Assembly: GCF_003605195.1 (NCBI RefSeq)
Contig: NZ_QYOS01000022.1
Span: forward strand, 124,001-188,000
Direction: 5' to 3'
Source of the DNA: Aurantiacibacter odishensis
Lineage (GTDB): Bacteria; Pseudomonadota; Alphaproteobacteria; Sphingomonadales; Sphingomonadaceae
Length of the DNA stretch: 64,000 nt
The position numbers were made by a program, and so were the translations under genes. Each line of letters starts with the position of its first letter. The first letter of the stretch is position 1. Below, in pieces: positions 20,194 to 22,706 of the stretch. The notes beneath the pieces were generated by a model that was given only the letters and a program-made list of their open reading frames with translations, had not been told where the DNA came from and ran no database searches.

Positions 20194-21156
20194 TCATCGA
20201 TTGGAATGACCTGTTTGGTCGATCAGTTCCCGCATATCGGTCGGTATTTCGCTGGAAAACGACAGGGCGTTACCGGTGACGGGATGGATGAAACCGAGTC
20301 GCGCGGCGTGGAGAGCCTGGCGCTCGAAACCCAGGGCCTTGATAACAGGCCGTAAAGCGGCTGGAGTGCGTCCGTACACAGGGTCTCCTATTAGCGCATG
20401 ACCGATTGACGCAAGGTGAACCCTGACCTGGTGGGTTCGCCCGGTTTCAAGGCGGCATTCGATCAGCGAACAGTGATCGAGGCGCTCCAGCGTGCGGTAG
20501 TGCGTGACCGCGTGTTTCCCACGCCTCGAATTGTCGGGCAGCACAGCCATTTTCTTGCGGTCCCGGTCGCTACGCCCGAGTCGCGCATCTACGGTTCCGG
20601 AAGAAGGATTGGGATGTCCGCCGCATACCGCGAGATAGGCCCGCTCGAGCGAGTGATCGGCGAACTGCTTCGCCAGCCCCTCGTGCGCCGCGTCGCTTTT
20701 GGCGACCACCAGCAGTCCGGATGTGTCCTTGTCGATCCGGTGGACGATGCCGGGCCGCGCGACGCCGCCGATGCCGGAAAGCTGGCCCCGACAGTGGTGG
20801 AGCAGAGCGTTCACCAGCGTGCCGTGGGGATTACCCGCAGCCGGATGGACCACCATCCCGGCAGGCTTGTCGACCACGATCAGGTGCTCGTCCTCGAACA
20901 CCACCGGGATCGGGATATCCTGTGGAACAGCCTGTGGATTACTTGGGGGCGGCAAGTGGATGAAAAAGCTCGAGCCCGCTTGAACTTTGGCGCTGGCACT
21001 GGTGACGGCCTTGCCGTCCACCTCCACCTTTCCCTCTGTAATCAAGGACTTGATCCGCTCCCGCGACAGATCGGCCACTTCCGCCAGCGCCTTGTCCAAC
21101 CGGGTGGCGGTGTGGATAATCCCGGTGAGGGTTTGAGTGGTTGTTTTGTCGGACAC
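20194..21156 (-). CDS. rluD: RluD-family 23S rRNA pseudouridine synthase
   Basis: 320 residues from a GTG preceded by AAAGAGAGG, which is close to the start. An S4 RNA-binding domain (about 15-75: RLDKALAEVADLSRERIKSLI) precedes the RluA-type catalytic domain with the HRIDKDTSGLLVVAK box containing the catalytic Asp, plus LETGRTHQVRVHLASIGHALIGD. This architecture matches RluD (positions 1911/1915/1917 in E. coli 23S rRNA), although RluC cannot be excluded from sequence reading. Divergent from the GIY-YIG frame, with one arm of a 31-bp inverted repeat between them. Confidence 0.9.
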   Translation of the reverse strand: MSDKTTTQTLTGIIHTATRLDKALAEVADLSRERIKSLITEGKVEVDGKAVTSASAKVQAGSSFFIHLPPPSNPQAVPQDIPIPVVFEDEHLIVVDKPAGMVVHPAAGNPHGTLVNALLHHCRGQLSGIGGVARPGIVHRIDKDTSGLLVVAKSDAAHEGLAKQFADHSLERAYLAVCGGHPNPSSGTVDARLGRSDRDRKKMAVLPDNSRRGKHAVTHYRTLERLDHCSLIECRLETGRTHQVRVHLASIGHALIGDPVYGRTPAALRPVIKALGFERQALHAARLGFIHPVTGNALSFSSEIPTDMRELIDQTGHSNR

Positions 21157-21166
21157 AGCCTCTCTT

Positions 21167-21197
21167 TACCGACTGCCCTGAGCTTGTCGAAGGGCTG
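21167..21197 (+). repeat. 31-bp inverted repeat, left copy (REP-like)
   Basis: A 31-base sequence with the core CCCTGAGCTTGTCGAAGGG that is itself an imperfect palindrome (GCCCT...AGGGC). A perfect reverse-complement copy lies at 21497-21527. The two copies bracket the GIY-YIG coding region. The core resembles dispersed REP-like elements common in sphingomonad genomes (established pattern, not searched here). Confidence 0.9.
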
Positions 21198-21218
21198 TCT
21201 TTCACTTAGCGCAGAGCA

Positions 21219-21914
21219 GTGCCTTTCTGGACCTACATCCTCCATTGCAATGCTGGCCGCTTTTACACCGGCCACACAGACGATCTCGAAAGGCGGATCT
21301 GGCAACACGAGAATGGGGTAATCCCCGGGTTCACGCGAAACTTCCTTCCGGTGAAGCTTGTCTGGTCTCAGGAATTCACGACGCGCGAGGAGGCGAAAGC
21401 TGCGGAGAAGCAGATCAAAGGTTGGTCGCGGAAGAAAAAGCTGGCGCTGATCCGTGGCGATTGGGCTTCAGTCTCGCGCTACACGAAAAGCAAGGGCAGC
21501 CCTTCGACAAGCTCAGGGCAGTCGGTAGTTGTTAGAGAAAGAGTGATCGCATTGCTTCGCGAGGAAGCACAGCGTGCATACCCTGACGAATGCTGCGGTA
21601 TCCTGCTCGGAGCAGGTGAAGCGATCACCGATGCCCTGCCAGCTCCTAACGTGCATTCCGCGCCGCGAACCCATTTCGAGATCGATCCGCAGGCCCTGAT
21701 CGACGCGCACCGTGCCGCGCGATCCGGCGGCCCGCAGGTGCTGGGTTACTACCACTCGCACCCGGCCGGACCGCCGCACCCGTCAGCCACCGACCGCGCC
21801 GAGGCTGCGCATGACGGCAAGCTTTGGGCTATCGTCTGCGAAGATGCGATTGGCTGGTGGCGCGATACGCCAGACGGTTTTACGGAGCTTCCCTACCCGC
21901 TCGTCCGCGCCTAG
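21219..21914 (+). CDS. GIY-YIG endonuclease domain fused in frame to a JAMM (M67/Mov34) metallopeptidase
   Basis: 231 residues from a GTG with only a weak Shine-Dalgarno. Residues 4-85 are a compact GIY-YIG domain (YILHCNAGRFYTGHTDDLERR, H30, ENG, EEAKAAEKQIKGW) like the small UPF0213/YhbQ group. Residues 93-103 (GSPSTSSGQS) are simply the translation of the 31-bp repeat at 21497-21527. Residues 108-231 are a JAMM domain with E124 and a perfect HxHx7Sx2D site (H179, H181, S189, D192), probably a Zn peptidase. Each domain is normally a separate protein, so the fusion looks like a consequence of insertion of the repeat-bounded GIY-YIG unit. The JAMM part could also start alone at the GTG at 21543 (upstream TTAGAGAAAGA). 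Confidence 0.8.
   Translation: MPFWTYILHCNAGRFYTGHTDDLERRIWQHENGVIPGFTRNFLPVKLVWSQEFTTREEAKAAEKQIKGWSRKKKLALIRGDWASVSRYTKSKGSPSTSSGQSVVVRERVIALLREEAQRAYPDECCGILLGAGEAITDALPAPNVHSAPRTHFEIDPQALIDAHRAARSGGPQVLGYYHSHPAGPPHPSATDRAEAAHDGKLWAIVCEDAIGWWRDTPDGFTELPYPLVRA
21497..21527 (-). repeat. 31-bp inverted repeat, right copy (REP-like)
   Basis: Perfect reverse complement of 21167-21197, 299 bases away. It lies inside the open frame and encodes the linker between the GIY-YIG and JAMM domains. Confidence 0.9.
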
Positions 21915-22052
21915 ATACCCGGCCATGCCCTGCCCTACCCGACGCATCGTTGCACTTTTCGACAAGTGCGGGTGGCAGCGTAGAAATTTTGCCCTAGGAC
22001 TGTGTTCCAGGTGTTCCACATTAACGCCAGACCAAGGCCACGAACTGTTCAA

Positions 22053-22706
22053 ATGACTTCCTCCCTCGATCTTGCTTCCCTGCTCTGCTCCCGCCTCTGC
22101 CACGACATGCTCAGCCCCGTGGGCGCGCTTAATAACGGGCTGGAACTGCTGGCGGACGAGAAGGACCCAGCGATGCGTCAGCGCTGCCTCGACCTGCTGG
22201 AACAGAGCGCGCGCATCTCCGCCAACAAGCTCAAGTTCTTCCGCCTCGCCTACGGCGCGGCAGGGGGATTCGGAGAGCAGGTGCCGGTGGAGGAACCGCA
22301 CGAACTGCTCACTTCGCTGACCTCGGCTGACGAACGACTTACGCTCGACTGGGCGGTGAGCGAACAGACGCTGTCGAAGCCCGCGATCAAGGTGCTGCTG
22401 AACCTTGCCGCCATGGGTCTCGATTCGCTGGTGCGCGGTGGAACGCTGGCCGTGGGTGCTGAGCGCAATGGCGGCCAGACGGAAATCGCCATTCGCGCCA
22501 GCGGCCCGCGCGTCGCTTTCGACGAGAACATCGGCAAGGCGCTGGACGGTTCGCTAGCGGCAGACGAACTTTCGGGCCGCACCGCCCCTGCCCACCTCAT
22601 CCGCCTGATCGTGGAGCGTGACGGCGGCGCGGTGCAGTATCACCACGGCAAGGAAGCACTTGTGCTGGGCGCCATGCTGCCCGATCCGGAGGGTATGATC
22701 GGTTGA
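22053..22706 (+). CDS. chpT: Histidine phosphotransferase ChpT
   Basis: 217 residues from the ATG at 22053; upstream in-frame codons encode an implausible basic stretch. The N-terminal helix carries the phospho-accepting His17 in LCSRLCHDMLSPVGALNNGLELL, the ChpT signature, followed by a degenerate kinase-like C-terminal domain (NLAAMGLDSLVRGG, APAHLIRLIVERDGG). ChpT relays phosphate from CckA to CtrA and CpdR and so sets cell-cycle and motility programmes in alphaproteobacteria. It overlaps the following amidase gene by 4 bases (TTGA). Confidence 0.9.
   Translation: MTSSLDLASLLCSRLCHDMLSPVGALNNGLELLADEKDPAMRQRCLDLLEQSARISANKLKFFRLAYGAAGGFGEQVPVEEPHELLTSLTSADERLTLDWAVSEQTLSKPAIKVLLNLAAMGLDSLVRGGTLAVGAERNGGQTEIAIRASGPRVAFDENIGKALDGSLAADELSGRTAPAHLIRLIVERDGGAVQYHHGKEALVLGAMLPDPEGMIG

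Follow-up and report, generated by a model that had tools for sequence, protein, structure and literature searches.

A branch of GIY-YIG nucleases bracketed by inverted REPs: a candidate enzyme for a second class of REP systems

A branch of stand-alone GIY-YIG nuclease genes is bracketed by inverted copies of REPs, which are common bacterial repeats, and at one locus gene and repeats are present or absent together. The type of REP, moreover, tracks the branch of the enzyme and not the host. Judged on sequence, these REPs likely have this branch as their cognate nuclease, and the nuclease is probably the enzyme that drives their spread, in a system resembling that of RAYTs and REPINs but built on an unrelated enzyme. 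The element described here would then be, with the same probability, a small autonomous unit of ~360 bp consisting of a REP, a GIY-YIG gene, and an inverted REP.

The element lies in the window (the whole stretch of 64,000 nucleotides analyzed, from the 3.19-Mb genome of Aurantiacibacter odishensis, the host genome), and its parts are listed in Table 1. The initial annotation had described perfect 31-bp inverted repeats that enclose a whole GIY-YIG coding region. The two arms are indeed exact reverse complements, and the nuclease domain does lie between them; the open frame, on the other hand, exceeds the right repeat. The inverted match extends to positions 21167-21202 and 21492-21527 (36 nt at 94% identity, with 31/31 over the arms themselves) and has a bracket score, defined below, of 31. 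Each arm is made up of a tag and an imperfect hairpin, CCCTGAGC-TT-GTCGAAGGG; the tag reads CCGACTG, against a consensus of CCGTTCG for this class of REPs (class I).

Table 1. Position of the REP-bracketed element and its neighbors within the window
Feature	Position	Strand	Description
Left REP (class I)	21167..21197	+	Tag outward; hairpin core CCCTGAGCTTGTCGAAGGG at 21176-21194
Right REP	21497..21527	-	Exact reverse complement of left REP; core at 21500-21518; encodes part of GSPSTSSGQS
Left subterminal stretch, CTGTCTTTCACTTAGCGCAG..	21195..21216	+	Shared in part with gene-less REP doublets of the host genome
Right subterminal stretch, CTGCCCTTGCTTTTCGTGTAGCGC read inward	21476..21499	-	Motif like the left one; overlaps 3′ end of GIY-YIG coding region
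Open reading frame	21219..21914	+	GTG start, 231 aa; GIY-YIG and Prok-JAB continuous through right REP
GIY-YIG nuclease domain (PF01541)	21225..21440	+	E 3.7e-17; Y6, Y16, R26, H30, E63 conserved
Prok-JAB domain (PF14464)	21537..21845	+	Belongs to gene adjoining the element
S4/RNA pseudouridylate synthase gene	20194..21156	-	Other neighbor of the element; presumably RluD-type

There is no stop codon ahead of the right REP, and the frame crosses the repeat into the Prok-JAB sequence, such that the two domains form a single open frame with a linker encoded by the REP. JAB frames of 234 to 236 aa occur in six gene-carrying genomes of the genus, the host included, which fits the read-through seen in the window. 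The five genus mates may carry the same fusion, although frame length is weak evidence for it because frames of 192 to 195 aa also occur in genomes without the gene. Matches of the frame in PADLOC fall on its JAB half (best E 2.8e-8), and we reject a defense system as an account of the element; a known structured RNA is likewise rejected, as an Rfam search of positions 20500-22500 returned no match up to E 1.

Bracketing of genes by inverted repeats was scored as the best ungapped inverted match between the 200 nt upstream and the 300 nt downstream of the domain, with a score of 14 as the threshold; for a neutral control, the downstream flank was complemented but not reversed. The family set consists of 106 listed GIY-YIG matches judged to be stand-alone, from 59 genomes of the family, after removal of UvrC matches in long frames (seven of which were reused as controls). 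Within this set, 86 of the 106 loci score at least 14, 76 at least 18, and 65 at least 22, versus a single locus that reaches 14, and none that exceeds it, in the neutral control. None of the control genes is bracketed (UvrC, 0/7; JAB, 0/29; Y1 transposase, 0/10, these being the 10 tested of 13 matches). The 20 unbracketed loci comprise two from another GIY-YIG branch, five that score 12 or 13 (short or decayed palindromes), and 13 with nothing recognizable. The former two (L134 and L160) represent a separate stand-alone branch, with the motif ..KSGSGRAFA[RQ]RH.. and without bracketing repeats.

The same pattern extends to the relatives of the window protein, of which we considered the best 80 of 552 confirmed places in a scan of the genome collection, spanning Alpha-, Beta-, Gamma-, and Deltaproteobacteria, Nitrospirota, and Binatia. 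Among these best 80, 70 are bracketed and 10 fall below the threshold; the core is present upstream in 66, inverted downstream in 65, and in both places in 59. Windows displaced within the loci of these 80 relatives are bracketed in 1 of 288 cases, which, together with the neutral control, rules out a chance origin of the repeat. Five of the 80 loci are common to other sets (L186, L197, and L247 hold family-set genes, and L182 and L189 are on contigs equal in length to those of genus genomes G235 and G224), and dropping them leaves 65 of 75 bracketed. For sister branches, 21 of 30 loci from across the phylum are bracketed, or 20 of 28 without the repeated loci L262 and L264 (identical to L108 and L011). 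An automatic test of tag orientation, crude in nature, classes 85 loci as outward only (56), both (13), neither (9), or inward only (7). Overall, the bracketing is real and general. That the arms in the window are identical had been read as a sign of recent placement; near-identical arms are common around such genes, and identity alone does not suffice for that conclusion.

REP type and enzyme branch go together. Loci were labeled by the REP motif present on both sides, and leaving out 24 unlabeled loci of the 106 and one short protein yields 81 proteins. For 77 of these 81, the nearest protein in another genome shares the REP class, versus a mean of 19 and a maximum of 32 with shuffled labels (200 runs), whereas two labeled genes within one genome are of the same class in only 16 of 92 pairs. 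At the bracketed loci of the sister classes, CGTC occupies the place of the tag in 41 of 55 cases, by a crude test that 9 of 22 class I loci also pass. In the host genome itself, three stand-alone GIY-YIG genes were found besides UvrC, and all three are bracketed (scores of 31, 30, and 29). The first two are flanked by REPs of one type whose stems differ (CCCT..AGGG and GCCT..AGGC), and the third, on contig C11, has a CGTC-type REP, CGTCATCCCAGCGAAAGCTGGGATCTCTC, on both sides. This repeat, CGTC-ATCCCAGC-GAAA-GCTGGGAT, matches the CGTC-REP superfamily in its CGTC tag, its 8-bp stem with A-T first pairs, and its 4-nt loop, although its tail, CTC, departs from the CCA consensus of the CGTC-REP paper (PMC3733652). 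The REPs of the window (TACCGACTG-CCCTGAGC..) bear another tag and have no stem starting with A-T. The initial annotation had raised a REP-like system tied to a GIY-YIG enzyme, and the sequence comparisons support such a tie, with genes of this branch lying between inverted copies far above every control; the system is broader than was stated there and includes several REP types, each with its own nuclease branch.

The nuclease, of ~95 residues, is UPF0213-like and falls in a branch of stand-alone GIY-YIG enzymes that is associated with REPs. Residues Tyr6, Tyr16, Arg26, His30, and Glu63 (frame numbering) are 98 to 100% conserved across a set of 161 proteins, made up of the 81 bracketed members of the family and of the window protein's relatives at the best 80 of 552 places, and this conservation of catalytic residues suggests selection for activity. 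The domain belongs to the GIY-YIG superfamily, with the Tyr, Arg, and Glu conserved, and matches UPF0213 structures in sequence (1zg2, 2.9e-13; 1ywl, 2.7e-10). A structure model (pLDDT 92) aligns with HIGLE, Slx1, I-TevI, UvrC, and UPF0213 over 69 to 93 residues (Z 5.3 to 7.6, rmsd 2.4 to 5.0), a range into which one unrelated chain also falls (Z 5.4); being middling (Z < 8), these matches would back the fold of the protein, not its function. No NCBIfam model names either class I protein of the host genome, and the third GIY-YIG protein of the host reaches 17.3 bits with the NCBIfam model for group I intron endonucleases, whose cutoff is 56.05. Homing endonucleases typically carry a separate DNA-binding region for a long target; the present protein consists of a single domain, and the only domain added to it is the JAB of its neighbor.

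The REP hairpin is conserved through paired changes. In 92 distinct class I stems, pairs 1 to 3, which adjoin the conserved core, are Watson-Crick at frequencies of 1.00, 0.97, and 0.91 (versus 0.86, 0.60, and 0.35 when shuffled), with C-G, G-C, and T-A interchanged, and pairs 4 to 8 exhibit little or no excess. The G of the class I tag consensus is invariant in all 122 outward copies; a further 40 copies of the class I core read inward. Within the stem, the core TGAGC..GTCGAA leaves a G and an A apposed, which perhaps form a G-A bulge. When folded as single-stranded DNA, two CGTC-type REPs have z-scores of -5.4 and -4.6 and a class I doublet has one of -5.7, with a lone class I arm folding weakly (z -1.7).

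A genome-wide search for copies, as proposed in the initial annotation, finds the repeats scattered. The exact 31-mer matches only the two window arms, and other places match pieces of it at 83 to 96%. The host genome contains 19 copies of its 19-nt core (CCCTTCGACAAGCTCAGGG, with as many as 3 mismatches), versus two of the reversed control, and 17 of the 18 copies with inspected surroundings sit in inverted, outward-oriented pairs (the exception is L019). An exact core, CTGAGCNTGTCGAAG, also has 19 copies in this genome: 14 form seven inverted, gene-less doublets 49 to 60 bp apart, outward as around the gene, four flank the two class I GIY-YIG genes, and one is single. Inverted REP doublets are, in short, dispersed in the genome. 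Four of the host doublets are identical copies close to contig ends and may represent one duplicated stretch. The ends of contigs C4, C8, C22, and C23 (L017, L018, L021, and L022) share an identical stretch that contains a REP doublet; this is probably duplicated sequence at which the assembly was interrupted. In G014, a genome of the same genus, 24 of the 38 cores belong to 12 outward pairs, spaced 48 to 62 bp apart, and there is one inward pair. A different arrangement occurs in G026 (C1:1181228-1181503), where five tandem class I cores, spaced by ~65 bp, lie directly upstream of a GIY-YIG gene.

The ends of the gene-bearing unit resemble those of the doublets in part. In comparisons of the left subterminal stretch with five doublets, no more than 20 of 1,000 shuffles are as good for three doublets, and 84 and 148 are as good for the other two; for the right stretch, the corresponding values are no more than 32 for three doublets and 59 and 83 for the others.

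We surveyed the site of the element in 40 genomes of the genus, of which 32 have a JAB match, giving 30 loci and 29 with both neighbors (L313, without the synthase, was left out). Between the synthase and JAB genes, the GIY-YIG gene is present at 13 of the 29 loci; none of these 13 lacks a REP core, and 10 have one core in each orientation. A gene kept at this locus in relatives without the repeats, the case that had been named in advance as contrary to a mobile unit, is thus found in 0 of the 13 genus genomes with the gene there. The proposed comparison with empty sites gives the complementary result: at 14 loci, from as many genomes, there is neither gene nor REP core. Two further loci, L308 (G239, 147 bp) and L312 (G217, 180 bp), are shortened remnants with one or two REP cores in which, on inspection by eye, the GIY-YIG gene is reduced to its 5′ end; they look as if doublets can arise through internal deletion. 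The gene is forward at 10 of the 13 loci and backward at three (L307, L309, and L314), the latter either because the segment between the repeats was inverted or because the insertions were independent. When mapped onto a tree of the neighbor genes that is weakly resolved, presence requires seven changes, at least two of which are forced by supported branches, and the presence label clusters to some degree (22 of 500 shuffles are as low). Empty and filled sites are too diverged here for a target duplication to be read, and none was readable at a second site, L016 (~1485-1594). At the latter and its orthologues (L360-L388; 27 readable loci, with L380 and L383 unreadable), the contents differ by species: there are class I doublets at five loci, CGTCATTGCGAG-type doublets at two (by eye), and, in other species, lone class I arms, palindromes of other kinds, or nothing.

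REP numbers are higher in genomes with the cognate gene. Class I cores have a median of 24 in the 20 genomes with a class I gene and of 1 in the 39 without (Mann-Whitney p 6e-5, uncorrected for kinship), and CTGAAC-type cores have a median of 6.5 in 14 genomes with the gene versus 0 in 45 without (p 5e-7, again uncorrected for kinship; G017 was assigned to the CTGAAC group by hand). At least two CTGAAC-type cores are nevertheless present in 8 of the 45 genomes without a gene of that group, and 13 genomes have at least five class I cores with no class I gene by motif. A profile search of these 13 shows that G047 does have a good class I gene and that the one in G007 is broken and accompanied by REPs; none was recognized in the other 11, including G054 (83 copies) and G010 (86 copies). 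The broken gene (L342/L357, G007 C1:144633-144862) lies among three class I cores in direct orientation. Conversely, five gene-carrying genomes have fewer than five cores in the form searched for, which may reflect REPs of the GAGCGAAGTCGAG form.

The 11 genomes with many cores and no recognizable class I gene would be expected if some other transposase or a host process moved the REPs and the GIY-YIG gene were a passenger, captured repeatedly and without a role; 12 of the 59 family genomes do encode some Y1 transposase (PF01797). We consider this very improbable, because capture would yield neither the branch-specific pairing nor the conservation of catalytic residues. A RAYT as the local mover is rejected, as the host genome has no Y1_Tnp match and none of the tested Y1 genes in the family genomes is bracketed by an inverted repeat.

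In another alternative, something else spreads the doublets, and the GIY-YIG protein is a homing endonuclease that cuts them and whose gene is copied in by recombinational repair. GIY-YIG is a classical homing nuclease domain, and the partial likeness of unit and doublet ends, as well as the two gene orientations at one locus, would be in line with homing. Against it, most genomes have one labeled gene per REP class (class I, 10 of 16 genomes; other classes, 15/20, 11/12, 11/12, and 6/6) despite the many target doublets available in some of them, and homing by itself leaves the higher REP numbers in genomes with the gene unaccounted for. We regard homing as unlikely.

The position of the upstream repeat, which ends a median of 20 nt ahead of the start codon (75 loci), would be a fair one for autoregulation, and the REPs might instead be terminators, RNA stability or autoregulatory sites, or substrates of a repair nuclease, with no mobility involved. 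The annotation of Escherichia coli yhbQ as a DNA damage response nuclease lends some weight to such a housekeeping role. According to a review, Slx1 founds a family that includes YhbQ, with Slx1-Slx4 acting on branched DNA (PMC7017083). The UPF0213/YhbQ/Slx1 proteins share sequence and modeled fold with the window nuclease; unlike it, however, 20 YhbQ-like genes (weak matches picked by hand from the same list) are all unbracketed, and the same test finds no bracketing repeat at E. coli yhbQ. A purely regulatory role is also hard to reconcile with identical cores scattered as gene-less doublets, with a unit that is present or absent, and in two orientations, at one locus, and with REPs that match the enzyme branch across distant hosts, as a terminator need not do. 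A role of this kind is therefore rather improbable.

The closest parallel to the element is the REPIN-RAYT system with its GTAG REPs. REPINs were defined as inverted REP doublets tied to RAYTs (Bertels and Rainey, PMC3116915); TnpAREP cuts single-stranded REPs, the weight of tag and hairpin varying by system, and the E. coli REP requires its bulge (PMC8266576); and REPtrons are missing in some species that carry the repeats (PMC3733652, for RAYTs). With these systems, the one described here shares short tagged hairpins, inverted doublets, an enzyme gene flanked by repeats (PMC3116915, PMC3733652, and PMC8266576), a class-specific enzyme, genomes that have repeats without the enzyme, and an interruption of the stem, which in E. 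coli is the REP bulge. It differs in having a GIY-YIG nuclease in place of an HUH/Y1 transposase and a tag of CCGTTCG (122 outward copies) or CGTC-like sequence in place of GTAG, and the absence of both the enzyme and the tag that define RAYT systems sets it apart from them. In RAYT systems, moreover, the enzyme performs strand transfer itself, which is not expected of a GIY-YIG protein. GIY-YIG enzymes hydrolyze DNA without a covalent intermediate, and they are not known to have strand-transfer activity, which counts against the mobilization reading. The element also recalls MITEs and their parent insertion sequences, having a gene-bearing unit, gene-less copies with partly similar ends, and deletion remnants; here, however, the ends are hairpin REPs, and no transposase of a known class lies between them.

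In our preferred reading, the nuclease drives REP spread, and the REP is its predicted recognition structure. The enzyme would recognize tag and hairpin in a REP that is single-stranded (on the lagging strand or in a transcription bubble) or forms an extruded cruciform, and the cut would be placed near the foot of the REP. Host repair or recombination could then copy a cut doublet or gene-bearing unit to other sites, a route we favor over enzyme-catalyzed strand transfer of the RAYT kind because of the lack of a covalent intermediate. Gene-less doublets would be non-autonomous forms, derived in part from gene-bearing units by internal deletion, and, by the same reasoning, CGTC-REPs would be served by sister branches of the nuclease.

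CGTC-REPs seem to be without a dedicated transposase, going by the paper describing them (Di Nocera, De Gregorio, and Rocco 2013, PMC3733652), in whose text the term GIY-YIG does not occur; the available portion of a 2025 REP survey (PMC12306157) contains neither the word nuclease nor the word transposase. Within the open-license PMC literature, no article has both "GIY-YIG" and "repetitive extragenic palindromic," and we found no link of GIY-YIG with REPs among the articles listed there; subscription papers and preprints lie outside this scope, and a prior description elsewhere is possible. The GIY-YIG enzyme is, on the comparisons above, a strong candidate for the spreader of a REP class that had no known mover. 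We further lean, with a little less assurance than for the nuclease as driver of REP spread, toward the existence of a second, transposase-free class of REP mobile DNA, widespread in Pseudomonadota and beyond, in which GIY-YIG branches each drive their own tagged hairpin, CGTC-REPs included, by cutting and host repair.

The branch-specific pairing across several phyla makes the question of the CGTC-REP enzyme biochemically testable. If the proposed system is real, REP systems would have arisen at least twice with unrelated enzymes, and a role would be suggested for common small genes that are known only as those of GIY-YIG proteins.
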